Origin: Blastococcus sp.
GTDB lineage: Bacteria; Actinomycetota; Actinomycetes; Mycobacteriales; Geodermatophilaceae
Direction: 5' to 3'
Length of the DNA stretch: 39,578 nucleotides
NCBI GenBank assembly: GCA_025965795.1
Contig: JAOPWH010000117.1
Coordinates: 1 to 39,578, forward strand
Positions 1-29,197 of the stretch are shown here, piece by piece; positions within the stretch are counted from its first letter, which is position 1; the number at the start of each line of letters is the position of its first letter. The notes below the pieces were generated by a model. That model made no database searches and was not told the origin of the DNA. It was given only the letters and a program-made list of their open reading frames with translations. The position numbers and the translations under genes were made by a program.

Positions 1-137
1 CCGCTGGGCGCGGCGAACGGCGAGTGCGGGGCGTGCTCCATCTCCCAGTGGTCGTTGTTGACGTTGCCGCCCTCGACCTGGTGGGCGGCGGTGGCGGCTC
101 CCCAGAGGAAACCGTCGGGGAAGTTCGCGCTGGTCAT
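1..137 (-). CDS. GH1 family beta-glucosidase (N-terminal part only)
   Basis: Only the first 45 codons lie in the window; the gene continues beyond the left edge. The visible N-terminus reads FPDGFLWGAATAAHQVEGG, the classic GH1 opening, with the conserved sugar-binding Gln at residue 20. Family GH1 enzymes cleave terminal beta-glucosides and related aryl glycosides with retention. No signal peptide precedes the domain, so the enzyme should be cytoplasmic. The ATG at 137 overlaps the stop codon of the upstream FAD monooxygenase as ATGA, and AGGAG lies about 7 bases upstream, so the two genes are translationally coupled. The context suggests action on aromatic beta-glucosides. The catalytic glutamates are outside the window, so activity cannot be judged here. 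Confidence 0.9.
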   Translation of the reverse strand, partial: MTSANFPDGFLWGAATAAHQVEGGNVNNDHWEMEHAPHSPFAAPS

Positions 138-1789
138 CGGGAGATCTCCTGGAAGGTGGGGTGGTCGCCGACGGCGATGTTCGGGGCGCCGGCCGCGCCG
201 ACGACGGAGCGGAGCAGGGCGTCCGGATCGGGAACGGTGGTGCCGCGCCAGGCGACGTGCTGGTCGGGCCGGACCAGGACGAGGTCGGCGTCGTAGCGGG
301 GGCGCAGTTCCGTGGGGAGGTCGAGGACCTGCAGGGGCAGGTCGGCGCGTGCCGCCGCGTCGGTCAGGCCGGTTGTGTCCACGTCCCGAGCGAGGCGGAG
401 GAGGGTGAAACCGTCGCCGAGGCGGTCGTAGATCGACGTGCCGTCGGCCAGCCAGGCGTGCGGGAGGCGCGCACCCGGGTGCGCAGACGGCGCGTAGGTG
501 CGCAGCGCCGGCGCCGGAACGGCTCGGCCGTCGGGGACGACGACGGGGGAGTCGGGGTAGTCGTAACCGAGCACCAGGCCGAGGCTGTGGAACTCGCTCT
601 CCTTGACCGAGAGCCGCCGGGCGACGTCGGCCCGGAGCAGCCGGCCCGCCGTGCCGCCGTCGTCGAGGTCGGTCTCGGCGAAGGACGGCGCGAGGAAGGA
701 CTCCTGGTCGCCGGCGGCGCCGATCGTGCGCATCGCGACCGGCCGGCGCTCCGCCTCGTAGCTGTCGAGCAGCGACTCGGGTGCCCACCCGTGCAGGACG
801 GCGGCGAGCTTCCAGCCGAGGTTGACCGCGTCGCCGACGCAGGTGTTGAAGCCGTGCCCGCCCCACGGCGGGTTGAGGTGGGCGGCGTCGCCGACGAGGA
901 ACACGTGGCTGCCGCGGTACCGGTCGACGAGCAGCATCCGCGCCGACCAGGGATCGGTGGCGAGCACCTCGACGTCGATGTCGGCTCCCGCCAGCGCGCG
1001 CACCAGTGCTGCGGGGTCGACGTCGTCAGAGCGCGTGTCGACGCCCTGGACGATGGCCCACCAGGTGCCGTCGAGATCGAGGCGGCCCATGAGGCCGCCG
1101 TGCTCCGCGCCGATGACCCAGTAGTGGACGCCCAGGGCGCACAGCTCGCGCTCCTCGAGCGCCCGGCTGCGGAAGGTGATGCTCAGGTTGGGCAGTGCAC
1201 CCGAGGAGCCCTCGTAGCGCGCGCCGATCGCGGTGCGGCTGACGCCGCCGCTGCCGTCGCAGCCGAGCAGCCAGTCGGCGCTGATGCGGTGCGGCGTGCC
1301 GTCGGGCGCCTCCAGTACCGCCTTGGCCGCGTCCGGTCCGTCGAGCACCGACACCGCGCGCCAGCCGGTCAGCAGCGTGACGGTCGGGAGTTCAGCCGCG
1401 GCCTCGCGGAGCACCTCCTCGACCAGCGGCTGCGGTGCCTGCTGCCCGGCCTCGGCGGCGATCTCCTCACGAGCCGTCCAGAGGCCGAAGGCGTTCTCGA
1501 AGCGGGTGATCTCGGAGCCGAACAGGCCGGTCACGAAGACGACGTCCTGGGCGTGCTCGACCGGCAGGGGAGCGGCTGCGCGCAGCCGGTCGGCGATGCC
1601 CCAGCGGCGCAGGTGCTCCATCGTGCGGACGCTGGTCGTCTTGGCGCGGGGGCGCAGCGGGTCGAGCACCGTCCGCGGCTCGACGACGAGCACCTCGATC
1701 CCGCGCCGGCCGAGCTCGATCGCGGCGGAGAGGCCACTGGGGCCGCCACCGACGACGAGCACCGGGACGGTGGCAGGCACGGTCGTCAT
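134..1789 (-). CDS. FAD-dependent aromatic monooxygenase (PHBH/TfdB/MhpA-like)
   Basis: A 551-residue class A flavoprotein monooxygenase, which would hydroxylate a phenolic ring using NAD(P)H and O2 in the cytoplasm. The dinucleotide-binding motif GGGPSG is at residues 14-19, the DG motif GCDGS at 177-181, and the FAD ribityl-binding GD motif (LVGDAAHLNPPWGGHG) at 298-313. The remaining C-terminal part matches in length the thioredoxin-like tail of the phenol hydroxylase and MhpA group. The reading frame extends upstream to 1930, but the ATG at 1789 has AGGAG at ideal spacing and the glycine-rich motif normally starts about a dozen residues in, so this start is preferred. The gene is coupled to the GH1 gene, and an IclR-type palindrome sits 136 bp upstream. 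Flavonoid or phloroglucinol hydroxylation fits the neighbourhood, but the substrate is inference. Confidence 0.9.
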   Translation of the reverse strand: MTTVPATVPVLVVGGGPSGLSAAIELGRRGIEVLVVEPRTVLDPLRPRAKTTSVRTMEHLRRWGIADRLRAAAPLPVEHAQDVVFVTGLFGSEITRFENAFGLWTAREEIAAEAGQQAPQPLVEEVLREAAAELPTVTLLTGWRAVSVLDGPDAAKAVLEAPDGTPHRISADWLLGCDGSGGVSRTAIGARYEGSSGALPNLSITFRSRALEERELCALGVHYWVIGAEHGGLMGRLDLDGTWWAIVQGVDTRSDDVDPAALVRALAGADIDVEVLATDPWSARMLLVDRYRGSHVFLVGDAAHLNPPWGGHGFNTCVGDAVNLGWKLAAVLHGWAPESLLDSYEAERRPVAMRTIGAAGDQESFLAPSFAETDLDDGGTAGRLLRADVARRLSVKESEFHSLGLVLGYDYPDSPVVVPDGRAVPAPALRTYAPSAHPGARLPHAWLADGTSIYDRLGDGFTLLRLARDVDTTGLTDAAARADLPLQVLDLPTELRPRYDADLVLVRPDQHVAWRGTTVPDPDALLRSVVGAAGAPNIAVGDHPTFQEISR

Positions 1790-1924
1790 CGGATCTCCTG
1801 TCATGGGGCTCGTCCACGGGGACGACGGGCGGAGCGAGTGCGTGCGGACGGACCTCCGCGGTCTGCGGAACCCGTCCGGCTCGGGACCAGCATCCGTGGC
1901 GGCGGTCACTCCGACGTAGGGCGT

Positions 1925-1939
1925 TGCCATTGAGCGGCA
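1925..1939 (-). promoter_or_regulatory. Candidate IclR operator, copy 1 (FAD monooxygenase-GH1 operon)
   Basis: The 15-mer TGCCATTGAGCGGCA is an imperfect palindrome with TGCC/GGCA arms. It is identical to copies 2, 3 and 4 in this window. It lies 136 bp upstream of the FAD monooxygenase start, in the 275-bp gap shared with the divergent HNH gene. The identity to a copy just upstream of the IclR gene suggests this is a binding site for that regulator. Confidence 0.7.
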
Positions 1940-2052
1940 GCGTGAACCGGTCCGATCGAGACCGGGCCGTCGCGGCCATCGGCGCGGGCCGTCCGGTGCT
2001 GCCCGTCTTGGCGTCTGCGCTGCTCAGGCCCGGATTTGTCGTACCCCTTCCG

Positions 2053-2058
2053 TAGCTT
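2053..2058 (+). promoter_or_regulatory. Possible leaderless -10 element for the HNH gene
   Basis: TAGCTT fits the actinobacterial TANNNT -10 pattern and ends 6 bases before the ATG at 2065, the spacing expected when transcription starts at the start codon. No convincing -35 was found at 16-18 bases. A short GAGG also sits just before the ATG, so leadered translation is not excluded. Confidence 0.35.
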
Positions 2059-3613: not shown

Positions 3614-4867
3614 TCAGGCGGTTGCGTTCCGTTCCTGCCACTGGCGCACCCAGGCTCGGCCGTAGTCGTTGCCGTGCGGCGCGCGCAGGACCGTGTGGAT
3701 GTGGAACGGCTGCGGGGTGTCGTAGTCGAGGAAGACGCCGCAGTGGTGGTCCAGCTCGGCGATCAGCACCGGCGACTGGAGGCGGTAGTAGAAGACGTCG
3801 CCGGGCGCGTGCCCGCCGATCCAGGAGAACCAGGTCTCCTCGAGGTGCTCCTCGACCTCGCGCAACCGGGCGGCCCGTGGACCCTCGGGCAGCAGCCGGA
3901 CGAAGGCCTCGGCGATGGACAGAGCCGCCTGCTGGGCCTCGGCCGGCAGATCGGCCACGCGGACGCCCTCGAAGGGGATCACCCGGTTGTCCTGGAAGGC
4001 CCCGGCCAGGTGCCGCTCGTCGCCCGGGTGCACGCGACCGGGCGGCATCGCCGGATCCACCATGTACTCGAAGACGACGGCGGCGCGGCGCTGCTCGGCG
4101 GTCAGGGCGGCCATCAGCGCGAGCCCGAGGTCGATGCGGTCGGCGAAGACGTCGGCGAGCCCGGCGTGCGGGCCGGCGTCGATCTCGTCGGGCTCGGCGC
4201 CGAGGAAGACCGGCGACACGACCATGCGGCCCTCGACCACCAGGCAGTTGACCGCGCAGTGGTGGCCGAACAGCTGCCAGCCCCAGGGCGCGTGCAGGTC
4301 GGGCTCGCCGTAGAGGGCGATGTTGTAGCTGAATTCGTTGAGCACCGTCTCCAGGTCGACCACCTCGCCGAGGAAGCCGTTGATCAGCATCATCGCGTGC
4401 GCCAGGTGGTAGCCCTCGGGGGAGAGCGAGGCTCGCATCAGGCCGAGCGCCTTCTCCCGCACCTCGACCGGCTGCAGGTCCAGCCGCAGGCCGGTGTCGA
4501 ACTGCAGAAACTCCGGATTCGCCCAGGTCTGCCACTCGACGGCGTCCACGTCGAAGGAGATCCGCTTCCGGCCGTCGTCGTCCAGGACGGCGAGCAGCTC
4601 GCGTGCGGCGGCGACCATTGACTCGACCGGTGCTTCCTCCCCGGGACGGGCGGGCTCGAAGGGGTAGAGCCCGTCGCGGAGGGTGCCGTCCTCGGTGACC
4701 CCGCGGAACTCGTTCCGGTAGAGCGGCGTCCAGCCCTCGACGAGGCCGCCGGTGAAGGTGCCGGGCTTCCGCGAGAACTCGCCATACGTGTACGGGTCCA
4801 TGCCGCGCACCTCGGCCACCCTCGGGTGGTCGTGCGGAAACAGGTACTGCCGGTACTCGCCGGACAC
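3614..4867 (-). CDS. DUF3500 family protein, unknown function
   Basis: A 417-residue protein recognised as DUF3500 (Pfam PF12006) by its C-terminal signature, in which LDHHCGVFLDY (372-382) is followed by PFHIHTVLRAPHGNDYG (387-403). Conserved-looking histidines at 202-203, 374-375, 389, 391 and 398 would suit a metal or substrate site; this is inference. There is no signal peptide or membrane segment, so it should be cytoplasmic. The GTG at 4867 was chosen because it starts 2 bases after the stop of the upstream FAH-family gene; the open frame further upstream is the shadow of that gene. It is the last gene of the cupin-esterase-FAH-DUF3500 operon. That position makes it a candidate for an unassigned step of aromatic or aglycone breakdown. 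I know of no characterised reaction for this family. Confidence 0.88.
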   Translation of the reverse strand: MSGEYRQYLFPHDHPRVAEVRGMDPYTYGEFSRKPGTFTGGLVEGWTPLYRNEFRGVTEDGTLRDGLYPFEPARPGEEAPVESMVAAARELLAVLDDDGRKRISFDVDAVEWQTWANPEFLQFDTGLRLDLQPVEVREKALGLMRASLSPEGYHLAHAMMLINGFLGEVVDLETVLNEFSYNIALYGEPDLHAPWGWQLFGHHCAVNCLVVEGRMVVSPVFLGAEPDEIDAGPHAGLADVFADRIDLGLALMAALTAEQRRAAVVFEYMVDPAMPPGRVHPGDERHLAGAFQDNRVIPFEGVRVADLPAEAQQAALSIAEAFVRLLPEGPRAARLREVEEHLEETWFSWIGGHAPGDVFYYRLQSPVLIAELDHHCGVFLDYDTPQPFHIHTVLRAPHGNDYGRAWVRQWQERNATA

Positions 4868-4869
4868 GG

Positions 4870-5718
4870 TCAGGCCTTTCGCGCGGAGTTGTCGACGATC
4901 CGGTTGGTCAGCACACCGATCCGCTCGACCTCGACCTCGACGACGTCCCCGGGCTGCAGCAGCCACGGCGGCGTGCGGGCGTAACCGACGCCGGACGGCG
5001 TGCCGGTGGCCAGCAGGTCGCCCGGCCGGAGCGTGAAGGTGTGCGAGATCAGCGAGAGCGTGTCACCGACGGGATAGACCATCTCGTCGGTGCGCCCGTC
5101 CTGCACGGTCTCGCCGTTGACCCGGGTCTGCACGTGGAGGCCGTCGCGCAGGTCACCGACCTCGGCGGCGGGGACGAGAGGCCCGAGCGGGCCGGAGTTG
5201 TCGCCGTTCTTGCCGAGGATCCACTGCGACGTGAGTTTCTGCGCCCGGCGTGAGGTGAGATCGTTGAAGCACGAGTAGCCGACGACGGCGGCCAGCGCCT
5301 CCTCGGGGGTCGCGTCCACGAGCGTCGAGCCCACGAACGCCATGACCTCGCCCTCCCAGTCGAGCCCGTCCTCGTTCGACGGCACGGGAACCTCGGCGCC
5401 GTCGACCGTGAGCGACTGCGTCCAGCGGGCGAACAGCGTCGGGTACGGCGGGATCTCCTGGTCGCGGAAGCTGCCCTCGGCGACGTGCTCGAGGTAGTTC
5501 AGCCCGATGCAGATCACCCGGGCTCCGGGAAGGACCGGCGGCACGAACCGCAGACCGGCCGCCGGCACCGTCTCACCCGCCGGTTCGCGCGAGAGGAAGG
5601 CCGCCGCGTCGGACCAGAACTCCTCGAGGCAGGCGATCACGGTCACCTGCGCGCCGTCTTCCGAGAGCGAGGCGACGAGCACGTCCCCGCCGTCCCGGCG
5701 GATGCCGACGATCCTCAT
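4870..5718 (-). CDS. Fumarylacetoacetate hydrolase (FAH) family protein
   Basis: A 282-residue FAH-superfamily enzyme. The family hydrolyses or decarboxylates acylpyruvate-type C-C bonds, or cleaves diketo sugar acids, using a divalent metal. The fold markers are CIGLNYLEHVAEG (70-82), the metal-binding Glu pair in DWEGEV (E122 and E124), D153 in CFNDLTSR, GKNGDNSGPLGP, and the C-terminal TGTPSGVGYA. An ATG 7 codons upstream (5739) abuts the stop codon of the preceding gene, but CGAGGACAG gives the ATG at 5718 a better ribosome-binding site. It sits between the esterase and DUF3500 genes in one operon. It could hydrolyse a ring-cleavage product of the aglycone. Alternatively it could act on a 2,4-diketo-3-deoxy sugar acid from L-rhamnose, since two rhamnosidases are encoded nearby. 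Confidence 0.88.
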   Translation of the reverse strand: MRIVGIRRDGGDVLVASLSEDGAQVTVIACLEEFWSDAAAFLSREPAGETVPAAGLRFVPPVLPGARVICIGLNYLEHVAEGSFRDQEIPPYPTLFARWTQSLTVDGAEVPVPSNEDGLDWEGEVMAFVGSTLVDATPEEALAAVVGYSCFNDLTSRRAQKLTSQWILGKNGDNSGPLGPLVPAAEVGDLRDGLHVQTRVNGETVQDGRTDEMVYPVGDTLSLISHTFTLRPGDLLATGTPSGVGYARTPPWLLQPGDVVEVEVERIGVLTNRIVDNSARKA

Positions 5719-5739
5719 CTGTCCTCGTCTCTCGGTCAT

Positions 5740-6642
5740 TCAGGCGCCCAGGCGGCGGCGCAGGCCGTCGATCGTGCGGTCGAGGGCCTTCGACGCGGCG
5801 TCCGGGGAGCCGAGCCACATGTGGTCGGCCCCCTCGTACCGCTCGAGCTCGACGTCCACCCCGGCCGCCTCCAGGAGCGCATACAGCCGGTCGCTCTGGA
5901 CGCAGGGCACGAACCGGTCGTCGAGGCCGTGCAGCAGCAGGAACGGCGGGGCGCCGGGGTGCACGTGCGTGACCGGGCTGGCCTGCGCGGCGAGCTCCGG
6001 CACGCTCGGGGCGGGGGCGCCCAGCAGCTGCGCCTCGCGGGTGGACGGGTCCGCCGGGTCGGCGCCCTTGTCCGGAGCGACCGCCGCGACGTCGCTCGGC
6101 GCGTACCAGGCGACGACGGCGGACACGGCGCTGGAGATCCCGGTGATGCCGACGTCCCCCTCCAACTCCGCGTCGTCGATGGTCAGCCCGAGCAGTTCGG
6201 CGAGGTGGCCCCCGGCCGACTCGCCCCAGGCGGCGATCCGCTCGGGATCGATGCCGATCTCCTCGGCGCGCGCCCGCAGCCAGCGGACGGCGGCCTTCGC
6301 GTCGTGCAGCTGCGCCGGCCAGGTCGCCTCACCGGACAACCGGTAGTCGATGCTGGCGACGGCGATGCCGGCCTGGGCGACCCGCTCGAACGGGCCGCCG
6401 GCCGCGTACGAGGGCCCGAGCGAGTGCCGGCTGCCCATGCGCCACCCGCCGCCGTGCAGGAACACGACGAGCGGCACCGGATTCCCCGTCTCCGGCGGGA
6501 GAACGAGGTCCAGCTCCAGCGGACGGACCCCCGGGATGGCGGCATACGGGACGCCGAGCAGCAGCCGGGTGCCGCCGGAGCCGGCCCGGGCGGGCGGCAA
6601 CGGGGCGACGTGAGCGGGCGGCGGCGGAAGAGCGGGCGTCAC
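5740..6642 (-). CDS. Alpha/beta hydrolase, BD-FAE/HSL-like esterase
   Basis: A 300-residue serine esterase. The oxyanion-hole motif HGGGW is at residues 63-67, the nucleophile is S142 in GESAGG, and the likely acid and histidine are D241 or D242 in HGLDDRF and H274 in GADHM. No signal peptide is seen, so it should act in the cytoplasm. The GTG start at 6642 overlaps the stop of the cupin gene as GTGA. It closely resembles the esterase at 19478-20401: both carry PAQLHDAKAAVR after the oxyanion loop. Directly after a quercetinase-like cupin, the obvious proposal is hydrolysis of the depside formed by flavonol cleavage into a protocatechuate-type acid and a trihydroxybenzoate. Deacylation of acylated glycosides is an alternative. 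The substrate is not shown by the sequence. Confidence 0.88.
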   Translation of the reverse strand: MTPALPPPPAHVAPLPPARAGSGGTRLLLGVPYAAIPGVRPLELDLVLPPETGNPVPLVVFLHGGGWRMGSRHSLGPSYAAGGPFERVAQAGIAVASIDYRLSGEATWPAQLHDAKAAVRWLRARAEEIGIDPERIAAWGESAGGHLAELLGLTIDDAELEGDVGITGISSAVSAVVAWYAPSDVAAVAPDKGADPADPSTREAQLLGAPAPSVPELAAQASPVTHVHPGAPPFLLLHGLDDRFVPCVQSDRLYALLEAAGVDVELERYEGADHMWLGSPDAASKALDRTIDGLRRRLGA

Positions 6643-7196
6643 TCCGCGTCGGGCCACTCGAAGTCGCGCATGAACTGCATGTGGTGCTGCTGGGCAGCGG
6701 CCTGCATGCGCGGGAAGTCCGGGATGAACGGCGGCTGGTCGGTGGTGGGGTGGTCGGTCGGCGTGCCCATGTGCTGGAAGAACCGCTCGAAGCCGCCGGA
6801 CAGCGTGCCCATCAGGCGGGCGGCTTCCTCGATCTTGTAGGCGTGCGCGAACCCGGCCGGCACGTACCCGAAGTCGCCCGGGTTCAGCAGCTCGGAGTGC
6901 TTTCCGCCGTCGGCGTCCTGGAAGAACAGCCGCACCTTGCCCTCCAGCACGTAGAACGTCTCGTGGGTGGCGTTGTGCGAGTGGGTGGGGATGATGTCGC
7001 CGGCCGGGGAGTCGGCGGTGATGATCCCGAACTGGCCCTCGGTCTCGTCGGCGGACAGCAGCACCGTCATCAGGTCGGTGAAGAGCATGGCGTGCTCGCC
7101 CTCGCCGCGGCGCAGCACGTAGGGAACGGGCCTGCCGGGCAGCTGCCCCTTCCATCTCGGGCCGTTCTCGGGGTCGATCAGGTACTCGAAGCTCAT
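6639..7196 (-). CDS. Quercetin 2,3-dioxygenase-like monocupin
   Basis: A 185-residue single-domain cupin. The first motif, HSHNATHETFYVLEG, supplies H72, H74 and E79; the second, PGDFGYVPAGFAHAY, supplies H118. This three-His-one-Glu metal set and the overall length match the monocupin quercetinase QueD of Streptomyces sp. FLA, whose ligands I recall as His69, His71, Glu76 and His115. Such enzymes open the flavonol C ring with O2, releasing CO and a depside. The ATG at 7196 has GGGAGAAA upstream; the longer frame starting at 7283 runs through the operator and is rejected. It is the first gene of a four-gene operon, with a candidate IclR operator 72 bp upstream. Other cupin substrates cannot be excluded, because the family covers many small phenolics and keto acids. 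Confidence 0.85.
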   Translation of the reverse strand: MSFEYLIDPENGPRWKGQLPGRPVPYVLRRGEGEHAMLFTDLMTVLLSADETEGQFGIITADSPAGDIIPTHSHNATHETFYVLEGKVRLFFQDADGGKHSELLNPGDFGYVPAGFAHAYKIEEAARLMGTLSGGFERFFQHMGTPTDHPTTDQPPFIPDFPRMQAAAQQHHMQFMRDFEWPDAE

Positions 7197-7267: not shown

Positions 7268-7282
7268 TGCCATTGAGCGGCA
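7268..7282 (-). promoter_or_regulatory. Candidate IclR operator, copy 2 (cupin operon)
   Basis: An exact copy of TGCCATTGAGCGGCA, located 72 bp upstream of the cupin ATG and 37 bp beyond the stop codon of the MFS gene. This is the right place to control the cupin-esterase-FAH-DUF3500 operon. No clear -35/-10 pair could be assigned next to it. Confidence 0.72.
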
Positions 7283-9947: not shown

Positions 9948-9962
9948 TGCCATTGAGCGGCA
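9948..9962 (-). promoter_or_regulatory. Candidate IclR operator, copy 3 (esterase-MFS operon)
   Basis: An exact copy of TGCCATTGAGCGGCA, 115 bp upstream of the fold-3 esterase start and 6 bp beyond the IclR stop codon. It would let the esterase-MFS pair be controlled separately from read-through of the IclR gene. Confidence 0.7.
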
Positions 9963-10790: not shown

Positions 10791-10816
10791 GGTGGGATCC
10801 CCGGACCGGTGGTCAT

Positions 10817-10831
10817 TGCCATTGAGCGGCA
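10817..10831 (-). promoter_or_regulatory. Candidate IclR operator, copy 4 (iclR autoregulation)
   Basis: An exact copy of TGCCATTGAGCGGCA that ends 27 bp upstream of the IclR GTG. Its position next to the regulator's own start is the main reason to assign the whole motif family to this protein. Confidence 0.75.
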
Positions 10832-10928
10832 TTCTGCACCCGGGACGGCTGTCCGGGATCCCTCCGAGGGGTGGCCGGAAACCGTCGGGTCACGAGCTGT
10901 TCACGATGAGGCGCGCACCACAGTTGTG

Positions 10929-10943
10929 TTCCATTGAACGGCA
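10929..10943 (+). promoter_or_regulatory. Candidate IclR operator, copy 5 (ABC transporter-GH operon)
   Basis: TTCCATTGAACGGCA differs from the other copies at two positions. It lies 123 bp upstream of the substrate-binding lipoprotein, and its centre is 112 bp from that of copy 4 in the same divergent 275-bp region. It is read in the direction of the transporter genes. Confidence 0.68.
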
Positions 10944-20401: not shown

Positions 20402-23040
20402 GCGACCTGACCGTCCTGCCCGTCACCGTCGAGCACCACCGAGAGCCGATCGGCGTCGGCGAGAGGACGCCCCGGCTGTCGTGGGTCACGCGCACCGAGC
20501 TGCCGGACTGGCGGCAGGCCGCCTACGAGCTGGAGATCGAGCCGCCGGACGGCGAGATCTGGTCGTCGGGCCGGGTCGAGTCCGCCGAGTCGGTCCTCGT
20601 GCCGTGGGAGGCGCCCGGACTGGTCAGCCGTGACCGGCGGATGCTCCGGGTCCGCGTCTGGGGGAAGGGCTCGGCCGAGCCGTCGGCCTGGAGCGAGGAC
20701 GTCGTCGTCGAGGCGGGGCTCCTCGAGCCGTCGGACTGGACGGCCCAGCTCGCCCGACCGGTACTGCCGGAGCCCGGCGGCACCGGCGAGCCGGTCGCCC
20801 TGCTCCGCCGCGAGTTCGTCCTGGACGAGCCCGTCGTGCGGGCCCGGCTCTACGCCACGGCGCAGGGACTGTACGAGGCCGAGATCGACGGGGTCGTCGT
20901 CGGAGACCACGTCCTCTCCCCGGGCTGGACCAGCTACCGGCATCGGCTGCGCTACCAGACCTACGACGTGACCGCCCTGCTCGGGGCGGGCCGGCATGCT
21001 CTGGGGGTCACCCTCGCCGACGGCTGGTACCGCGGTCACCTGGGCTTCACCGGCGGGCGGCACCTCTACGGCGACCGCACCGGAGCCTTCCTGCAGCTCG
21101 AGGTGGATCACCCCGACGGGACCCGCACGGTCGTGAACACCGACGGCTCGTGGCGGTCGAGCCTGGGCCCGGAGACCCGGGCCGACATCTACAAGGGGGA
21201 GACGGTCGACTTTCGGCGGCAAAGGGCCGGCTGGTCCACCGCGGGGTTCGACGACTCGGACTGGACCCCGGTGGAGCTGGGGTCGCTCGACGCGACCACC
21301 CTGGTCGCCCCGACCGGCCCGCCGGTGCGGCGGATCGAGACGCTCCCGGTGCGGGAGATCTCGGTGTCACCCTCGGGGAAGACGTTGCTCGACTTCGGCC
21401 AGAACCTGGTCGGCCGGATCCGCTTCTCCCTGCCCGACGGCCCGGCCGGTACGGAGATCACCGTCCGGCACGCCGAGGTGCTCGAGCACGGCGAGCTCGG
21501 GGTGCGTCCACTCCGCGCGGCGGACGCCACCGACGTGATCGTCCTGGACGGGAACGGACCCCGGACCTGGGAGCCGAGGTTCACCTTCCACGGTTTCCGG
21601 TACGCCGACGTCACCGGCTGGCCCGGCGAGCTCGGCGCGGACGCGCTCGAGGCCGTCGTCGTCCACACCGATCTGCGCCGCACCGGCACGTTCAGCTGCT
21701 CGGACGCCGACGTCGAGCGGCTGCACGAGAACGTCGTCTGGGGCATGCGGGGGAACTTCGTCGATCTGCCCACCGACTGCCCCCAGCGGGACGAGCGGCT
21801 GGGCTGGACCGGCGACCTGCAGGTCTTCGCCCCGACGGCGTCGTTCCTCTTCGACGCGTCGGGGATGCTGCGGTCGTGGCTCGCCGACCTGGCGGTCGAG
21901 CAGCTCGAGGACCACGACGGCATCGTGCCGATGTACGTGCCGTTCCTCCCGTTCCTGCCCTTTCCGATGCAGGCCGACGTCGGCTGGGGTGACGCGGCGG
22001 TCGTCGTCCCCTGGGTGCTCTACGAACGCACCGGAGATCTCGGCCTGCTCGCCGACCAGTGGACGTCGATGACCACGTGGGTCGACGTCTTCGCTGGTCG
22101 GGCCGGCGCGGACCTGGACTTCCCGGAGGGCGGGTTCTCCTTCGGCGACTGGCTGGACACCGCGGCGCCGCCGGAGAACCCCGCCGCCGCCCGGACCCCC
22201 TGGCAATGCGTCGCCACGGCCTACCTGGCCCGCTCCGCGCGCACGGTGGCGCAGGCGGCCGAGGTGCTCGGCCGCGACGGCAGCCGGTTCGCCGAGCTGG
22301 CCGACCGGGCCGCGGCCCGGTTCCGCGCCGAGTACGTGACGCCGAACGGCCGGGTGTCCTTCCCCTCGCAGACCGCCTACGCGCTCGCCCTGGAGTTCGA
22401 CCTGCTGACACCGGAGCAGCGACAGCACGCCGGCCGGCTGCTGGCCGAGCAGGTGCTGAAGGACGGCTTCCACATCGCCAGCGGCTTCCTCGGGACGCCG
22501 CTGGTCACCGATGCACTGACCAACGCCGGTGAGCCGGCGACGGCCTACGAGCTGCTGCTGCAGCGGGAGAACCCGTCGTGGCTCTATCCGGTCACCATGG
22601 GCGCGACGACGATCTGGGAGCGCTGGGACTCCATGCTCCCCGACGGGTCGATCAACCCCGGCGACATGACCTCGTTCAACCACTACGCGTTCGGTGCGGT
22701 CGCCGACTGGCTGCACCGCACGGTCGCCGGTCTCGCACCCGCCGCGCCGGGTTACCGGCGGCTGCGGTTCGCCCCGCGGCCCGGTCCCGGCATCACGTCG
22801 GCCGCGGCCACTCACGAGACGCCCTACGGGACGGCCTCGGTCGCCTGGACGCTGTCGGGCGGAACGGCGTTCGCCCTCGACGTCACGGTGCCGCCGAACA
22901 CGACGGCGGAGGTCGTGCTGCCCGACGGCAGCGCCCCGGTCGAGGTCGGCGCCGGCCGGCACTCCTTCGAGGCGACGATCGAGGAGCCGGTCCCGGTCGA
23001 GAAGCCGGCGCTGTTCTTCAACCCGGACGACCACCAGTGA
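20398..23040 (+). CDS. GH78 alpha-L-rhamnosidase (second copy)
   Basis: An 880-residue GH78 enzyme. It has the N-terminal sandwich domains (ATAQGLYEAEIDG, LGVTLADGWYRGHLG) and the catalytic barrel with DCPQRDERLGWTGD from residue 460, where E466 is the likely general acid. TTIWERWDSM supplies the likely general base E741, and a C-terminal beta domain follows. No signal peptide is present. This acid motif is the form seen in many characterised bacterial rhamnosidases, whereas the first copy has a one-residue-shorter version. It overlaps the esterase before it (ATGA) and the GH43 gene after it (GTGA), so the operon is tightly coupled. Two different rhamnosidases suggest substrates with more than one rhamnose linkage, such as rutinosides and neohesperidosides; this is inference. 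Confidence 0.94.
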   Translation: MSDLTVLPVTVEHHREPIGVGERTPRLSWVTRTELPDWRQAAYELEIEPPDGEIWSSGRVESAESVLVPWEAPGLVSRDRRMLRVRVWGKGSAEPSAWSEDVVVEAGLLEPSDWTAQLARPVLPEPGGTGEPVALLRREFVLDEPVVRARLYATAQGLYEAEIDGVVVGDHVLSPGWTSYRHRLRYQTYDVTALLGAGRHALGVTLADGWYRGHLGFTGGRHLYGDRTGAFLQLEVDHPDGTRTVVNTDGSWRSSLGPETRADIYKGETVDFRRQRAGWSTAGFDDSDWTPVELGSLDATTLVAPTGPPVRRIETLPVREISVSPSGKTLLDFGQNLVGRIRFSLPDGPAGTEITVRHAEVLEHGELGVRPLRAADATDVIVLDGNGPRTWEPRFTFHGFRYADVTGWPGELGADALEAVVVHTDLRRTGTFSCSDADVERLHENVVWGMRGNFVDLPTDCPQRDERLGWTGDLQVFAPTASFLFDASGMLRSWLADLAVEQLEDHDGIVPMYVPFLPFLPFPMQADVGWGDAAVVVPWVLYERTGDLGLLADQWTSMTTWVDVFAGRAGADLDFPEGGFSFGDWLDTAAPPENPAAARTPWQCVATAYLARSARTVAQAAEVLGRDGSRFAELADRAAARFRAEYVTPNGRVSFPSQTAYALALEFDLLTPEQRQHAGRLLAEQVLKDGFHIASGFLGTPLVTDALTNAGEPATAYELLLQRENPSWLYPVTMGATTIWERWDSMLPDGSINPGDMTSFNHYAFGAVADWLHRTVAGLAPAAPGYRRLRFAPRPGPGITSAAATHETPYGTASVAWTLSGGTAFALDVTVPPNTTAEVVLPDGSAPVEVGAGRHSFEATIEEPVPVEKPALFFNPDDHQ

Positions 23041-24536
23041 CGGCCGCGCGTCCCGTCGTCCCTGGCTTCCATCCCGACCCCAGCATCTGCCGGGCCGGCG
23101 ACACGTACTGGATGGTCGTCTCCAGCTTCGAGTACGCACCCGGGGTGCCGCTGTTCCGCTCTGCGGACCTGCTGTCCTGGGAGCAGGTCGGGCACGTCCT
23201 GGCCCGGCCTGCCCAGCTCGACGTGTCATCGGCGCCGGGCTCCGGCGGCATCACCGCGCCGACGATCCGGTTCCATGACGGCCGGTTCTGGATGATCGCC
23301 ACAAACCTGGCCGACGGCGGGTGGCAGACCCTCGTCACCACCGACGACCCGCTCGGAGCGTGGTCCGAGCCCGTCCGGATGCCCGAGGTCCGCGGCATCG
23401 ACCCCGACCTCGCGTGGGACGACGACGGCACGCTCCTGGTCACCTACGCGGGCTTCGGCCCCGGCGGTCCCGCCGGTCTCGTGCAGCAGGCCGTCGACCC
23501 GGGAACGGGTCGCGCGCTGACCGAGCGCAGGCACGTGTGGCAGGGCACCGGCGGCCGGTTCCCGGAGGGCCCGCACCTCTACCGCATGGGCGAACACTGG
23601 TACCTGCTGATCGCGGAGGGCGGCACCGAGCGCGGGCACGCGGTCACCATCGCCCGCGGCACCGCACCATCCGGGCCGTTCGAGCCGTGCCCGTGGAATC
23701 CGCTGCTCACCCACCGCGGCATCGAGTCGCCGGTGCAGAACACGGGCCACTCCGATCTGGTCCAGCGGCCCGACGGCAGCTGGGCGATCGTCTTCCACGG
23801 CGTCCGCCCCCGCGGGACGAGCCCGCAGTTCCACGTGCTCGGTCGGGAGATCTTCGCCGCGGAGGTGGAGTGGGAGGACGGCTGGCCTCGGCTGGGGGAG
23901 TGGCTCACCCCGCCGGGCCGGGCGATGGAGGTCGAGGAGCTCGGCGGTCCGGCCCTCCCGGTGTCGTGGGTGGCACCGCGCCGGTTCCCGGACGAGGTGC
24001 TCAGGCGGGAGGACGGCGGCTGGCGGCTGACCGCGGTCGAGGCCGAGCCGGCGTCGGAGGACCTCGCGTTCGCCGGCCGGCGGCAGGAGCACCTGGTCGC
24101 GCGTGCCCGGACCGTGGTGGGCCCCGGCGACGGCGTGGGCGGGCTCTCCCTGCGGATGGATGCCCGCCACCACCTCCGGCTGGAGCTGGACGCCGACCGC
24201 GTGCGAGCGATCGCCCAGGTCGGTGCGCTCCGGTCGGTGCTCGGCGAGACCGCTGTTCCGGCCGGCGAGGACGTCGTCCTGGAGGTCCGGGCCATGCCGG
24301 ACGAGGGCCACTTCTCCTCCACCGCACTCGGCCCCGACGTGCTGGTCGCCGGAGTCGTGGGCTGCGACGGCTTCACCGAGCTCGGCCGGCTCGACGGCCG
24401 CTACCTCTCCACCGAGGTGGCCGGCGGCATGACCGGCCGGCTGTTCGGCGTCTGGTGCTCCCGAGGTGAGCTGCTCGTCCGCTCCTTCACGTACAGCGGC
24501 TCCGACCCCGTTCCCACGACGATCGAGGCACAGTGA
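23037..24536 (+). CDS. GH43 beta-xylosidase / alpha-L-arabinofuranosidase
   Basis: A 499-residue inverting glycosidase. The five-bladed propeller starts at once with GFHPDPSIC, placing the general base at D14; the pKa-tuning aspartate is D122 in GIDPDLAWDDDG and the general acid is E177 in FPEGPHLYRMG. The residues after about 310 form the C-terminal beta-sandwich usual in xylosidase-type GH43 members. There is no signal peptide. The GTG at 23037 overlaps the rhamnosidase stop as GTGA, and its own stop overlaps the next start the same way. Whether xylose or arabinose is released cannot be told from these motifs; the xylAB genes further on would use xylose. Confidence 0.92.
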   Translation: MTAARPVVPGFHPDPSICRAGDTYWMVVSSFEYAPGVPLFRSADLLSWEQVGHVLARPAQLDVSSAPGSGGITAPTIRFHDGRFWMIATNLADGGWQTLVTTDDPLGAWSEPVRMPEVRGIDPDLAWDDDGTLLVTYAGFGPGGPAGLVQQAVDPGTGRALTERRHVWQGTGGRFPEGPHLYRMGEHWYLLIAEGGTERGHAVTIARGTAPSGPFEPCPWNPLLTHRGIESPVQNTGHSDLVQRPDGSWAIVFHGVRPRGTSPQFHVLGREIFAAEVEWEDGWPRLGEWLTPPGRAMEVEELGGPALPVSWVAPRRFPDEVLRREDGGWRLTAVEAEPASEDLAFAGRRQEHLVARARTVVGPGDGVGGLSLRMDARHHLRLELDADRVRAIAQVGALRSVLGETAVPAGEDVVLEVRAMPDEGHFSSTALGPDVLVAGVVGCDGFTELGRLDGRYLSTEVAGGMTGRLFGVWCSRGELLVRSFTYSGSDPVPTTIEAQ

Positions 24537-26773
24537 CCCCCGTGACCCGCTCCGACCTGGATGCGCTGCCCCTCGAGCGCAAGGCCCTGCTGCTCTCCGG
24601 CCGGAACTTCTGGTCCACCGAGCCGGTCGAGGAGATCGGTCTCCCGTCGGTGGTGCTCACCGACGGCCCGCACGGCGTCCGCCGTCAGCAGGCGGACTTC
24701 GACCAGGTCGGGTTGATGGACAGCGCACCCGCGACCTGCTTCCCGCCGGCGGTCGCCGTGGGATCCAGCTGGGACCCCGACATCGCCGAGCGCATCGGCA
24801 CGGCGATCGGCAGGGAGGCGCGAGCGCTGGGCGTGCCGGTCGTCCTCGGCCCGGGCGTGAACATCAAGCGGTCACCGCTGTGCGGCAGGAACTTCGAGTA
24901 CTACTCGGAGGACCCGCTGCTGGCCGGCGTGCTCGGCGCCGCCCACGTGCGCGGCCAGCAGAGCCAGGGCGTCGGAGCCTCGGTGAAGCACTTCGCGGCC
25001 AACAACCAGGAGACGTCTCGCATGCAGGTCAGCGCCGACGTCGACGAGCGCACCCTGCGCGAGATCTACCTGCCCGCCTTCGAGCGGGTGGTCACCGAGG
25101 CCCGTCCGGCGACGGTCATGTGCGCCTACAACAAGATCAACGGCGTCTACGCCTCGCAGAACCGCTGGCTGCTCACGGAGGTACTGCGCGACGAGTGGGG
25201 CTTCACCGGCGCGGTGGTCTCCGACTGGGGCGCGGTCGACGACCGGGTGGCGGCGCTCGAGGCGGGCCTCGACCTGCAGATGCCCGGCGACCACGGCGCG
25301 GGCAACCGGCTGGTGATCGAGGCCGTCCGGGCGGGGGCGCTGGACGAGGCGGTCGTGAACCGGAGCGCGCGACGGGTCGCCGCGCTGGCCGAACTCCGGA
25401 GCGAGCCGACGGACGGCTTCGACGTCGACGCGCACCATGCGCTGGCCCGCGAGCTCGCCGCCGGGTGCGCGGTTCTGCTGAAGAACGAGGGCGGCGCGCT
25501 GCCTCTCGCCCGGGACGCGCGCGTCGCCGTGGTGGGGGAGTTCGCCAGGACTCCCCGTTACCAGGGCGGCGGCAGCTCGCACGTCAACGCGACCCGGGTC
25601 GACGACGCGCTCAGCGTGCTGGGGTCCGTCCTGGACGGAACGGTCGCGTTCGCGCCCGGCTTCTCCCTCGACGGCTCCGGCGACGCGGCTGTCCTGCGCG
25701 AGGGCGCGCTCGCCGTCGCCCGGGACGCCGACGTCACGGTCGTGTTCGCCGGCCTGGCCGAGGACGACGAGTCCGAGGGCTTCGACCGCACGACCCTCGA
25801 CCTGCCCGCGATCCAGGTCGAGCTGATCCGCGCGGTGGCCGCGGTCAGCCGGCGGACCGTCGTCGTGCTGTCGACCGGGAGCGTCGTCTCGCTGGAGGCC
25901 TGGCACGACGACGTCGACGCGATCCTGGCCGGCTTCCTGCTCGGTCAGGCCGGCGGTGGCGCGCTCGCCGATCTGCTCACGGGTGCCGTCGACCCCTCCG
26001 GGCGGCTGGCCGAGACCATTCCGCTGCGCCTGCAGGACACCCCCAGCTACCTGAACTTCCCGGGCGAGCTGGGCCATGTCCGCTACGGCGAGGGGGTCAT
26101 GGTCGGCTACCGGCACTTCGTCACCGCCGACGCGCCGGTCCGCTATCCCTTCGGACACGGCCTGAGCTACACGACCGTCGAGACCACCGATCTGCAGGTT
26201 CGGTCGACCGGCGGCGACGCCGCCACCGTCTCGCTGACCGTCACGAACACCGGCGGGCGCGCCGGCCGGCACGTGGTGCAGGTCTACGTCGCGACGTCCG
26301 CAGGACCGGTCCGCCGGCCGGCCCGCGAACTGCGCGCGTTCACCAAGCTGTCGCTGGAGCCGGGCGAGGCGCGGAAGGTGTCGTTCCAGCTGGACCGTCG
26401 GGCGTTCGCGTACTGGGACGTCAGGGAGGGCGGCTGGATCGTCGCACCGGGCGAGTACACGGTGCAGATCGGCCGCAGCTCCGCCGACATCGTGGCCGAG
26501 GCGGCGGTGACCCTGGCCGGGGACGCCGTCGTTCCGGAGCTGACGCTGCAGTCGTCGGTGGTCGAGTGGTTCGAGCACCCGGTGGTCGGCGCCCCGCTGC
26601 TCGAGATCTTCCTCGCCGCGATGCCCGAGGGTGCCGCCGAGATGCACGCGGGGCTGCTGCGCATGATCGGATCGATGCCGATGCGCCGGTTCGCGGCCGA
26701 CTTCGGCGCGACGATCCCCGCCGTGGAGCTCGAGCGCCTCATGGCCGAGGCGAAGGCCGCTCGCGCCGGCTGA
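24533..26773 (+). CDS. GH3 family beta-glucosidase / beta-xylosidase
   Basis: A 746-residue GH3 enzyme, the last gene of the transporter operon. The N-terminal barrel contains KHFAANNQE, MCAYNKINGVYAS and the nucleophile D231 in VVSDWGAVDD. The second domain has LLKNEGGALPL and the probable acid/base E415 in SEGFDRTTLDLP. A fibronectin-III-like domain (NTGGRAGRHVVQVYV) follows, then a tail of about 90 residues. No signal peptide is seen. The GTG at 24533 overlaps the GH43 stop as GTGA. GH3 members remove beta-linked glucose or xylose from aryl and steroid glycosides. Together with the rhamnosidases this completes stepwise removal of a disaccharide such as rutinose. Confidence 0.93.
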   Translation: MTPVTRSDLDALPLERKALLLSGRNFWSTEPVEEIGLPSVVLTDGPHGVRRQQADFDQVGLMDSAPATCFPPAVAVGSSWDPDIAERIGTAIGREARALGVPVVLGPGVNIKRSPLCGRNFEYYSEDPLLAGVLGAAHVRGQQSQGVGASVKHFAANNQETSRMQVSADVDERTLREIYLPAFERVVTEARPATVMCAYNKINGVYASQNRWLLTEVLRDEWGFTGAVVSDWGAVDDRVAALEAGLDLQMPGDHGAGNRLVIEAVRAGALDEAVVNRSARRVAALAELRSEPTDGFDVDAHHALARELAAGCAVLLKNEGGALPLARDARVAVVGEFARTPRYQGGGSSHVNATRVDDALSVLGSVLDGTVAFAPGFSLDGSGDAAVLREGALAVARDADVTVVFAGLAEDDESEGFDRTTLDLPAIQVELIRAVAAVSRRTVVVLSTGSVVSLEAWHDDVDAILAGFLLGQAGGGALADLLTGAVDPSGRLAETIPLRLQDTPSYLNFPGELGHVRYGEGVMVGYRHFVTADAPVRYPFGHGLSYTTVETTDLQVRSTGGDAATVSLTVTNTGGRAGRHVVQVYVATSAGPVRRPARELRAFTKLSLEPGEARKVSFQLDRRAFAYWDVREGGWIVAPGEYTVQIGRSSADIVAEAAVTLAGDAVVPELTLQSSVVEWFEHPVVGAPLLEIFLAAMPEGAAEMHAGLLRMIGSMPMRRFAADFGATIPAVELERLMAEAKAARAG

Positions 26774-27280: not shown

Positions 27281-27354
27281 GCCTGGACGTTAGCCGGGCG
27301 GGCAGCCGCCGATGCCGTGGGCGTGGGCGGTGCCGTGGGCGTGGAGCGAGAGCG

Positions 27355-27369
27355 TTCCATCCAACGGCC
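27355..27369 (+). promoter_or_regulatory. Degenerate sixth IclR operator candidate (beta-glucuronidase gene)
   Basis: TTCCATCCAACGGCC matches operator copy 5 at 12 of 15 positions and the main form at 10 of 15. It keeps the CCAT and CGGC blocks and lies 71 bp upstream of the GH2 start, a distance like those of the stronger copies. It could tie the isolated GH2 gene to the regulon, but the match is weak enough to arise by chance. Confidence 0.4.
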
Positions 27370-27439
27370 GACCGACTGGGCGAGGGCCGTGCAGCGTGAA
27401 GTACTGGCACCGATCCCTGCCCTCGACCAGAAGGACGTC

Positions 27440-29197
27440 ATGCTCCGGCCACAGGACGGTCCCACCCGCGAGCGGAAGAAGCTCGACGGCCTCTGGCGGT
27501 TCGCGCTCGACCCCGGCGGGACGGGCCGAGGGGACGGCTGGTGGCGCGAGCCGTTGCCGGACGCCCGCGAGGTCGCCGTTCCGGCGAGCTACAACGACCT
27601 GTTCGCCGACGCCGCCGTCCGCGATCACGTGGGTGACGCCTGGTACCAGACGGACGTCGTCGTACCCCGCGGGTGGGCCGGCCAGCGGGTGGTGCTCCGC
27701 TTCGACGCGGCCACCCACCGCGCGGTCGTCTGGGTGGACGACGTCGAGGTCGCCGCGCACGAGGGCGGCTACACGCCGTTCGAGGCCGACGTCACCACGC
27801 ACGTCCGGCCGGGCCGGCAGGTGCGGATCACCGTCGTCGTCGACAACCGGCTGACCTGGCAGTCGATCCCGCCCGGCGTCGTCACGGACGGCAGGCAGAC
27901 CTACTTCCACGACTTCTTCAACTACGCCGGCCTGCACCGGTCGGTGTGGCTGTACTCGACGCCGCTCGCGCACATCGACGACCTCACCGTCGTTCCCGGC
28001 CTCGAGGGGACGACGGGCACCGTCGGCTACCGGATCGGGACGTCGGGAGGTGGTGAGGTGCGGGCCGTGCTCCTGGACGCCGGGGGCACCGAGGTGGCCC
28101 GGTCGGACGGCGCCGAGGGTGTGCTGACCGTCGAGGAGGTGCATCCGTGGCGGCCGGGGGAGGGCTACCTCTACGACCTGCGGGCGGAGCTGACCGACGG
28201 GAACGAGGTGATCGACAGCTATCGGCTGCCCGTCGGCATCCGGACCGTGGAGGTGAGGGGAGCGCAGTTCCTGATCAACGGCGAGCCGTTCCGCTTCACC
28301 GGCTTCGGCAAGCACGAGGACATCCCGGTCAGGGGTAAGGGCCACGACGACGCGTGGCTGGTGCACGACGGCGCGCTGATGGAGTGGATCGGCGCCAACT
28401 CGTTCCGAACCGCGCACTACCCGCACGCCGAGGAGGTGCTGGACTACGCCGATCGGCACGGCATCGTGGTCATCGACGAGGCCGCCGCCGTCGGCCAGAA
28501 CATGAAGCTGGCGGCGGTCGTGATGGGGACGCAGTACGAGACGTTCTCGCCGGAGACGATCGACGAGCGCAGCCGGGAGGCGCACGCGCAGGCCGTCCGC
28601 GAGCTGATCGCCCGCGACAAGAACCATCCCAGCGTCGTCCTCTGGAGCATCGCGAACGAGCCGGAATCCGACAGCGACGCCGCCGTCGACTACTTCGAGC
28701 CGTTGTTCGCGCTGACCCGGGGGCTGGACCCCACCCGGCCGGTCGCGTCCGCGAACATGATGTTCGCCCCCCACGGCCGCGACCGGCTCCAGGCCCTCGG
28801 CGACGTGGTGATGCTCAACCGCTACTACGGCTGGTACGCGTTTCCGGGTGACCTCGACGGCGCGGAGCGCGCACTGCAGGCCGAGCTCGAGGCGTGGGCG
28901 GGGGAGGGCAAGCCGATCGTCGTCAGCGAGTTCGGGGCGGACGCGATGCCCGGCGTCCGATCGGTCACGCCGCAGCCGTGGAGCGAGGAGTACCAGGCCG
29001 AGTTCCTGGCGATGTACCACCGCGTCTTCGACCGCATCGACGCCGTCGTCGGCGAGCACGTCTGGAGCTTCGCCGACTTCGCCACCAGCGCGGCCATCGG
29101 CCGGGTCGACGGCAACCGCAAGGGCGTGTTCACGCGGGACCGGCGACCGAAGGCCGCAGCGTTCCTCCTCCGCAGTCGCTGGCGGAAGCTCGGCTGA
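27440..29197 (+). CDS. uidA: GH2 beta-glucuronidase
   Basis: A 585-residue GH2 enzyme with sugar-binding, immunoglobulin-like and barrel domains. The acid/base is E407 in WSIANEPES and the nucleophile E497 in SEFGAD. The N-x-K motif that recognises the glucuronate carboxylate is present as N559-R-K561, with spacing very close to Escherichia coli UidA (E413, E504, N566, K568). This supports glucuronidase over galactosidase activity. There is no signal peptide, so it is cytoplasmic. The ATG at 27440 follows AGAAGGACGTC; the open frame further upstream runs over the antisense DoxX gene. A 12-bp-stem hairpin covers its stop codon. Glucuronides are a common form of flavonoids and triterpenes in plants, so it fits the locus, though it is its own transcription unit. 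Confidence 0.92.
   Translation: MLRPQDGPTRERKKLDGLWRFALDPGGTGRGDGWWREPLPDAREVAVPASYNDLFADAAVRDHVGDAWYQTDVVVPRGWAGQRVVLRFDAATHRAVVWVDDVEVAAHEGGYTPFEADVTTHVRPGRQVRITVVVDNRLTWQSIPPGVVTDGRQTYFHDFFNYAGLHRSVWLYSTPLAHIDDLTVVPGLEGTTGTVGYRIGTSGGGEVRAVLLDAGGTEVARSDGAEGVLTVEEVHPWRPGEGYLYDLRAELTDGNEVIDSYRLPVGIRTVEVRGAQFLINGEPFRFTGFGKHEDIPVRGKGHDDAWLVHDGALMEWIGANSFRTAHYPHAEEVLDYADRHGIVVIDEAAAVGQNMKLAAVVMGTQYETFSPETIDERSREAHAQAVRELIARDKNHPSVVLWSIANEPESDSDAAVDYFEPLFALTRGLDPTRPVASANMMFAPHGRDRLQALGDVVMLNRYYGWYAFPGDLDGAERALQAELEAWAGEGKPIVVSEFGADAMPGVRSVTPQPWSEEYQAEFLAMYHRVFDRIDAVVGEHVWSFADFATSAAIGRVDGNRKGVFTRDRRPKAAAFLLRSRWRKLG

Follow-up and report, generated by a model that had tools for sequence, protein, structure and literature searches.

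A conserved Blastococcus locus with a shared 15-bp motif, a probable IclR-controlled catabolon for flavonol glycosides

Described flavonoid pathways and the Blastococcus locus

Bacterial routes of flavonoid breakdown have been divided into A-ring and C-ring types (PMC11069340; this and the other papers cited by PMC number are cited for excerpts of their text). Excerpts of the same paper present the fde route of Herbaspirillum and the ifc route of Variovorax as aerobic catabolism by soil bacteria in which a flavin adenine dinucleotide (FAD) monooxygenase takes part and the A-ring is hydroxylated and cleaved by a glyoxalase-type dioxygenase (PMC11069340). Most of the families discussed here are already known, as are bacterial quercetinases, among them the monocupin QueD of Streptomyces sp. 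FLA (PDB 5FLH/5FLI) and the bicupin YxaG/QdoI of Bacillus subtilis (about 340 amino acids). The fungal rutin catabolic pathway attributed to Tranchimand in 2010 reportedly proceeds through deglycosylation, a quercetinase and a depside esterase, steps shared with the route proposed below; it is not known to be encoded in one co-regulated locus that includes an importer. Here, we analyzed a contig of 39,578 nucleotides from Blastococcus sp. (GenBank JAOPWH010000117.1; hereafter the window), in which a quercetinase-like cupin is encoded together with an ATP-binding cassette (ABC) importer, glycosidases, esterases, an FAD hydroxylase, an FAH-family hydrolase, a DUF3500 protein and an IclR regulator (Table 1). 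Collectively, our data point to a conserved, probably co-regulated flavonol-glycoside catabolon under the control of a single IclR protein, a reading to which we assign a probability of about 0.72.

The window cupin is a quercetinase-like monocupin of the QueD type. When compared with solved sequences, it matched YxaG/QdoI with an E value of 2e-43 and QueD with 3e-40, and all six solved sequences matching at 1e-10 are quercetinases; the next relatives, SLL1358 and oxalate decarboxylases, matched only at 1e-8 or weaker. Like QueD, it is a single cupin of about 185 residues, and the two align collinearly over nearly the whole protein. The His, His, Glu and His residues that define the cupin metal ligands are kept, as the HxHx4E motif (HSHNATHE) and the later FAHAY align to HSHADTYE and VHAY of QueD. 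No NCBIfam quercetinase model was matched by the cupin, and two weak cupin models stayed below their cut-offs. The predicted activity on flavonols would be 2,4-dioxygenolysis with release of CO, the same reaction class as that of YxaG/QdoI; unlike the latter, the window enzyme is a monocupin, and bicupin homologues occur in Arthrobacter-type versions of the locus (E value of 5e-63 to YxaG). The window cupin sits in a locus with an importer, glycosidases and genes for the A-ring.

Two divergent gene blocks, spanning about positions 1 to 26773, meet at the IclR gene. The leftward block encodes, in order, IclR, an HSL-type esterase, a DHA2-type MFS transporter, the cupin, a BD-FAE esterase, the FAH protein and DUF3500, the inferred start of which (4867) lies two bases after the FAH stop; the FAD hydroxylase and a truncated GH1 gene lie beyond DUF3500 on the same strand, past an opposite-strand DUF222-like gene. 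The rightward block runs from the SBP_bac_5 lipoprotein through OppB, a fused OppC and OppD frame, OppF, GH78, BD-FAE, GH78 and GH43 to GH3, with four-base overlaps linking the genes from the first GH78 onward. Domains were called with Pfam, applied to 29 open reading frames (ORFs) of the window as a subset, and NCBIfam. They comprise a full Opp/Dpp-type importer set (SBP_bac_5, two BPD permeases and two oligo_HPY ATPases), two GH78 rhamnosidases (E values of 3e-103 and 6e-119), three esterases (two BD-FAE and one Abhydrolase_3) and an IclR protein carrying both IclR_C and HTH_IclR domains, which did not pass the cut-off of its closest model, PcaR/PcaU/PobR (108.3 against 284.75 bits).

An initial annotation of the window had named a locus for plant phenolic glycosides at 1 to 29197 in tight operons, and every part that it listed was recovered: the importer, two rhamnosidases, a xylose/arabinose glycosidase (GH43), GH3, GH1, a glucuronidase (GH2), three esterases, the quercetinase-like cupin, the FAD hydroxylase (FAD_binding_3), the FAH-family enzyme (FAA_hydrolase), the exporter (the MFS protein) and IclR. 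It had omitted DUF3500, and the operons as described hold only to about 26773, the GH2 gene being separated by about 670 bp. We considered GH1 as a possible error of that reader and rejected this, since the match is genuine and truncated by the contig edge. The importer binding protein carries a lipobox and, in a crude hydropathy check, the glycosidases have no signal-peptide-like start, which fits the import of intact glycosides; together with the collinearity with QueD, this lends support to the earlier proposal of intact import, cytoplasmic deglycosylation and ring opening by the cupin.

A shared motif and conservation of the gene set

Five copies of the 15-bp motif TGCCG[C/T]TCAATGG[C/A]A were found in the window, preceding the FAD hydroxylase gene, the cupin, the HSL esterase, IclR and the importer. 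In the whole draft assembly (4.0 Mb, 317 contigs, 88% complete; the window is its contig C147), a scan with at most one mismatch returned only these five copies and the reversed-pattern control none, while a looser pattern gave one extra copy elsewhere against three control matches. In regions fetched from 22 relatives and scanned with up to two mismatches, the motif lies before the cupin in 21, before the FAD hydroxylase gene in 19 and before the IclR/importer pair in 19; a few copies occur elsewhere, several of them ahead of a gene that resembles GH2. When each of the 23 sequences was put through one plain shuffle, a single match was obtained in total. The form found in genomes G003 and G022, TGCCATTCAATGGCA, is a perfect inverted repeat around its central base.

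The distribution of the motif follows that of the regulator. We collected 80 DUF3500 loci, the best 80 of 191 relatives from one scan of genome contigs, and searched their fetched flanks (10 kb) with the window proteins as queries. Of the 22 loci that hold an IclR orthologue (50% identity or more), 18 contain a looser form of the motif, against 2 of the 58 that lack one; in 16 of those 18, no more than 102 bases separate it from the IclR match. This co-occurrence makes the IclR protein the likely binder of the motif, a putative operator, and IclR would then probably unite the importer, the glycosidases, the cupin operon and the FAD hydroxylase in one regulon. Locus L025, one of the two with the motif and no IclR orthologue, is a short contig.

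The GH2 glucuronidase is probably not part of this regulon because it stands apart from GH3 and no motif copy was found upstream of it in the window scan. Membership of GH2 in the GH3 operon was considered and rejected in view of the gap, an intervening opposite-strand ORF and the motif-free upstream region, and a GH2 like that of the window (69-75% identity) is found in just 3 of the 22 relative regions. Separately, an additional, distant GH2-like gene (26-29%) lies near GH43/GH3 in G002, G022, G087, G089, G092 and others; in several relatives it has its own motif copy upstream, and it was not seen in the window.

The initial annotation had suggested a search for the same gene set in related genomes, and the 22 regions revealed a nearly identical gene set and order, which argues that the locus is not a chance assembly. 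The FAD hydroxylase gene lies instead between FAH and BD-FAE in six regions (G040, G041, G045, G046, G049 and G053), the HSL esterase is present in 16 and a GH1 N-terminus like that of the window in 20. Both GH78 genes fall within 17 regions; four fetched regions end before them, and that of G053 has neither importer nor GH78. No close match to the MFS gene was found at its position in the 22 regions.

We further scored presence across 112 Geodermatophilaceae genomes, including that of the Blastococcus sp. itself. The cupin was found in 30 and DUF3500 in 34 genomes (both in 29, DUF3500 alone in 5, the cupin alone in 1, neither in 77), not counting DUF3500 matches of lower strength in G004, G006 and G012 or an additional weak one in G005. 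The 29 genomes with both span seven genera, their occurrence is patchy, and the two genes lie less than 6 kb apart in 26 of them, on different contigs in 2 and 3.4 Mb apart in 1. An orthologue of the second rhamnosidase (GH78b, at least 75% identity; the matches in G091 and G109 are just 57% and 42% identical and were not counted) is present in 26 genomes, 25 of them with the cupin, 1 without; the cupin occurs without it in 5, and 81 genomes have neither. In those 25, GH78b lies within 23 kb of the cupin in 21 and on another contig in 4. The initial annotation had named a lack of conserved co-occurrence of cupin and GH78 as one possible refutation of its reading; with 25 genomes having both and 6 just one, this refutation does not apply.

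Proposed pathway and rival explanations

DUF3500 (PF12006) was recognized with a Pfam score of 337.9 bits against a gathering cut-off of 27.2, and its predicted structure has a mean predicted local distance difference test (pLDDT) of 89 and a predicted template modelling (pTM) score of 0.91. An alignment of 11 sequences reaching to Komagataeibacter shows no variation at the adjacent H202 and H203, at E371 or at the HxH pair formed by H389 and H391, residues that would suit a metal site. A DUF3500 protein of Aspergillus nidulans has been proposed as a putative dioxygenase that converts 1,2,3,5-tetrahydroxybenzene (THB) to 5-hydroxydienelactone, in an excerpt that cites Martins et al. 2024 (PMC12388069). 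Like this fungal central pathway, the window encodes a DUF3500 protein; unlike it, the locus is bacterial and also encodes a quercetinase, glycosidases and an ABC importer, with one motif shared among them. In the fungal cluster of Martins and colleagues, DUF3500 is reportedly accompanied by a monooxygenase, an FAH-like gene and a short protein, with 2,4,6-trihydroxybenzoate as one substrate, so that the FAH-like gene, the monooxygenase and this substrate would also be shared. Splitting of a flavonol depside yields 2,4,6-trihydroxybenzoic and 3,4-dihydroxybenzoic acid according to an excerpt of PMC12940152, and depside hydrolysis by an esterase is described in part of PMC5557065. Given that 2,4,6-trihydroxybenzoate comes from the A-ring, and given the fungal proposal, the FAD hydroxylase, DUF3500 and FAH would form a coherent A-ring branch.

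The FAH protein carries an FAA_hydrolase domain (211 bits), and its metal residues are present, the E-x-E and D of WEGEV and FNDLT aligning with YEGEL and INDVT of 6iym. Its best solved relative is titled 5-oxopent-3-ene-1,2,5-tricarboxylate decarboxylase (5e-40), and an L-2,4-diketo-3-deoxyrhamnonate hydrolase ranks third (4e-38).

Gene content and order, their conservation, the common motif and the family assignments are read from the sequence; from these data, we infer all substrates and reactions of the following route, with least confidence in steps 4, 6, 7 and 8. The lipoprotein-dependent Opp-type importer would bring in flavonol glycosides bearing rhamnose, glucose and pentose and possibly acyl groups (step 1), the sugars being stripped in the cytoplasm by GH78, GH43, GH3 and GH1 and the acyl groups by the BD-FAE and HSL esterases (step 2). 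With O2, the monocupin would open the C-ring to CO and a depside (step 3), which an esterase, most likely the cupin-adjacent BD-FAE, would split into protocatechuate, or 4-hydroxybenzoate in the case of kaempferol, and 2,4,6-trihydroxybenzoate (step 4). Protocatechuate would enter the route encoded elsewhere in the genome (step 5), where pobA, an IclR-type regulator, pcaH, pcaG and pcaB adjoin on contig C144; pcaH and pcaG passed their cut-offs, and for pobA and pcaB, only fragments fell within the stretch that was fetched, with scores below the full-length cut-offs. A rhamnose isomerase above its cut-off is encoded on contig C93. The FAD hydroxylase would convert 2,4,6-trihydroxybenzoate to THB by oxidative decarboxylation (step 6), and DUF3500 would open THB in an O2-dependent reaction, a cut between C1 and C2 yielding 2,4-dioxoadipate or its lactone (step 7), from which the FAH acylpyruvase would release pyruvate and malonate (step 8). 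DUF3500 may thus break the A-ring, whose fate in bacteria was unclear. In the fde/ifc routes, the A-ring is attacked; in the window, the cupin would open the C-ring first, and a dedicated branch for the A-ring would be coupled to this step. An A-ring-first route of the fde/ifc kind was rejected, as no FdeC-type glyoxalase/VOC fold was matched among the 29 window ORFs scanned.

Several observations weigh against this interpretation. Only 0.11 motif copies are expected in the window at up to two mismatches, an estimate made after the fact, since the motif was first spotted by eye in these same promoters; for a shorter, looser form, 1.4 are expected, and 1 of 100 shuffles reached five. The motif is scarce in loci of the bicupin type (2 of 25, both with an IclR orthologue at 56%). 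The Fisher values for the 112 genomes (1e-20 for cupin and DUF3500, 6e-19 for cupin and GH78b) overstate independence, as these genomes are kin, and in G083 the cupin and GH78 lie together with DUF3500 3.4 Mb off. The best NCBIfam model for the FAH protein, 2,4-didehydro-3-deoxy-L-rhamnonate hydrolase, was matched below its cut-off (142.2 against 500 bits). Neither cupin type was found in the fetched flanks of 41 of the 80 DUF3500 loci, so the DUF3500-FAH pair is not specific to flavonols, and the annotated neighbourhood of DUF3500 on a Komagataeibacter plasmid is without genes of aromatic catabolism. Finally, just one relative of DUF3500 has a solved structure, 9x86 (ApmL/Amc20), and it bears the title of a dehydratase; the fold therefore gives no proof of dioxygenase chemistry and leaves the type of reaction open.

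This last point bears on an alternative in which the flavonol route holds as far as the depside, DUF3500 dehydrates, hydrates or isomerises a product formed after cleavage, and the ring opens spontaneously or by another enzyme. We consider it unlikely, though worth keeping in mind: 9x86 stands alone among the PDB matches of the DUF3500 model at E 0.001 (Foldseek E value of 4e-17, profile E value of 6e-26), with no dioxygenase beside it, and yet the A. nidulans protein is proposed to act as a dioxygenase, and besides the cupin no other plausible ring-cleaving enzyme is present among the 29 Pfam-scanned ORFs. No viral structure matched the DUF3500 fold at E 0.001, and nothing on the enzyme was found among the matches listed in a search of open-licence papers for ApmL.

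It is less probable still that the locus serves to break down rhamnosylated or acylated plant glycosides of other kinds, such as saponins, phenylethanoids or lignan glycosides, with a different phenolic as the cupin substrate. The match of the cupin at 1e-10 to quercetinases alone among solved sequences, the recurrence of the same neighbours around a different quercetinase architecture in Arthrobacter-type loci and the fit of trihydroxybenzoate and THB to flavonol A-rings all argue for flavonols, even though GH78, GH43, GH3 and the esterases are not flavonol-specific and three esterases exceed the need of simple flavonol glycosides. We regard as very improbable a role in detoxification rather than nutrition, in which the cupin and the exporter-type MFS would remove antibacterial flavonols and the glycosidases only scavenge sugar. 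Such a role has been suggested for a bacterial quercetinase in an excerpt of PMC12940152, and the MFS gene is present in the locus; however, the 22 relative regions show no such gene at the corresponding position, DUF3500, FAH and the FAD hydroxylase belong to the same putative regulon, and genes for protocatechuate and rhamnose catabolism exist in the genome.

The catabolon reading might be extended to DUF3500 at large by its neighbourhoods. In the 80 loci, an FAH homologue flanks DUF3500 in 77; a monocupin is found in 14 (that of L045, merely 38% identical, is doubtful) and a bicupin in 25. The FAD hydroxylase accompanies 14 of 14 monocupin, 24 of 25 bicupin and 10 of 41 cupin-less loci, and the cupin-adjacent BD-FAE esterase 14, 19 and 4, respectively. 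GH78 falls within the 10-kb flanks of 0 monocupin, 11 bicupin and 1 cupin-less loci and lies farther out in the monocupin group; a few bicupin loci (e.g., L065, L071, L085 and L091) have a whole importer (about 40-65% identity) together with GH78. A DUF3500 match occurs in 44 plasmid records; in the 7 that we examined, an annotated FAH gene lies adjacent or nearby in 3, a Rieske oxygenase in 1, and 2 have no annotation there. The family may thus act in other aromatic pathways. We see even odds for the broader proposal that DUF3500 is a ring-cleavage family common to bacteria and fungi and that DUF3500-FAH constitutes a central THB pathway serving many feeders in actinobacteria and, judged by neighbours, some Pseudomonadota; quercetinase would be the feeder here, and a single IclR switch would govern the mineralisation of whole flavonol glycosides via pyruvate, malonate and the beta-ketoadipate pathway.

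Cupin-less DUF3500-FAH pairs were seen in Nonomuraea, Microbispora and Streptomyces (L016, L018, L021, L034-L037, L039 and L040), and 8 of the 41 loci without a cupin have a different FAD hydroxylase (of the L019:13854-15638 type) nearby. The DUF3500 genes on plasmids of Paraburkholderia, Thioclava, Rhodococcus and Streptomyces (L094-L097) have genes for FAH, a Rieske oxygenase, an AMP-binding protein or a cupin in their vicinity.

According to the initial annotation, no single locus of this kind is known to have been described in an actinobacterium. In agreement with this, no bacterial locus that would process a flavonol all the way from its glycoside to the opening of both aromatic rings was found in open-licence papers, searched by abstract openings, among the matches listed, and a search on quercetinase, gene cluster and rhamnosidase returned only two gut-microbe reviews among the open-licence matches. 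Searches on flavonoids in Geodermatophilaceae and on a rutin locus in actinobacteria likewise yielded no such description among the matches listed. What is new is that these genes are assembled as one putative regulon with a motif and that DUF3500-FAH is linked to a quercetinase. The locus supplies a candidate for the A-ring step of flavonol breakdown and gives DUF3500, an unnamed family, a testable role in bacteria; the gene set and motif could serve as markers for likely users of flavonol glycosides among actinobacteria.

Feature coordinates and neighbouring genes

Table 1. Features of the Blastococcus sp. window (functions predicted from sequence)
Feature	Position	Strand	Basis or remark
GH1 beta-glucosidase family, N-terminal 45 residues, cut by contig edge	1..137 (frame 3-137)	-	Pfam GH1, 26.2 bits vs 22.6; overlaps FAD hydroxylase gene stop
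FAD-dependent aromatic hydroxylase, FAD_binding_3 + Rng_hyd_C, PRK06126/RebC/RdmE-like	134..1804	-	Start inferred
Operator copy 1 (putative IclR, 15 bp), upstream of FAD hydroxylase	1925..1939	-	Motif scan
DUF222-like gene between FAD hydroxylase and DUF3500	2065-3597	+	Match just under Pfam cut-off
DUF3500 protein, proposed polyhydroxybenzene ring-cleavage enzyme	3614..4867	-	Pfam E 8e-101; start inferred
FAH-family (acylpyruvase-type) hydrolase	4870..5739	-	FAA_hydrolase domain
BD-FAE alpha/beta esterase, proposed depside hydrolase	5740..6657	-	Pfam; start inferred
Monocupin quercetinase homologue, 185 amino acids	6639..7196	-	Sequence similarity; start inferred
Operator copy 2 (putative), upstream of cupin operon	7268..7282	-	Motif scan
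DHA2-type MFS transporter	7320..8792	-	Pfam/NCBIfam
HSL-type esterase (Abhydrolase_3)	8859..9833	-	Pfam/NCBIfam; start inferred
Operator copy 3 (putative), upstream of HSL esterase	9948..9962	-	Motif scan
IclR regulator	9969..10832	-	Longest frame; true start may lie downstream of operator copy 4
Operator copy 4 (putative), IclR promoter	10817..10831	-	Motif scan; overlaps 5' end of longest IclR frame
Operator copy 5 (putative), importer/glycosidase operon promoter	10929..10943	-	Motif scan
SBP_bac_5 lipoprotein, lipobox LAAC	11066..12616	+	Pfam; start inferred
OppB-type permease	12718..13659	+	Pfam; start approximate
OppC permease + OppD ATPase, single open frame	13668..15698	+	Pfam; start approximate
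OppF-type ATPase	15695..16720	+	Pfam
GH78 alpha-L-rhamnosidase a	16761..19481	+	Pfam
BD-FAE esterase 2	19478..20401	+	Pfam
GH78 alpha-L-rhamnosidase b	20398..23040	+	Pfam/NCBIfam
GH43 glycosidase	23037..24536	+	Pfam
GH3 glycosidase	24533..26773	+	Best NCBIfam model exo-alpha-L-arabinopyranosidase, 888 bits, under cut-off 1300
ORF of 145 amino acids between GH3 and GH2, coding-like composition	26843-27280	-	No Pfam match
GH2 beta-glucuronidase family, probably outside regulon	about 27440-29197	+	Model 854.9 bits vs cut-off 544; start inferred
ROK regulator, xylose isomerase, xylulokinase, directly right of locus	29213-33071		xylA, xylB over cut-off
Second DHA2 MFS, MftR-like TetR regulator, fasciclin-domain protein, SorA/SoxC-like molybdopterin oxidoreductase	33164-39576		

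The DUF222-like gene is probably an insertion; three congeners have it at the same place (54-56% identity), and it is not seen there in the remaining 19 regions. No link to the flavonol locus was seen for the genes at the right end of the window (33164-39576). The AP_endonuc_2 and FGGY genes at about 30-33 kb, beyond the span given in the initial annotation, were considered as rhamnose genes and rejected, as they are xylA and xylB, the products of which could serve xylose once it is released; the ROK, XylA and XylB genes likewise follow the locus in G005.

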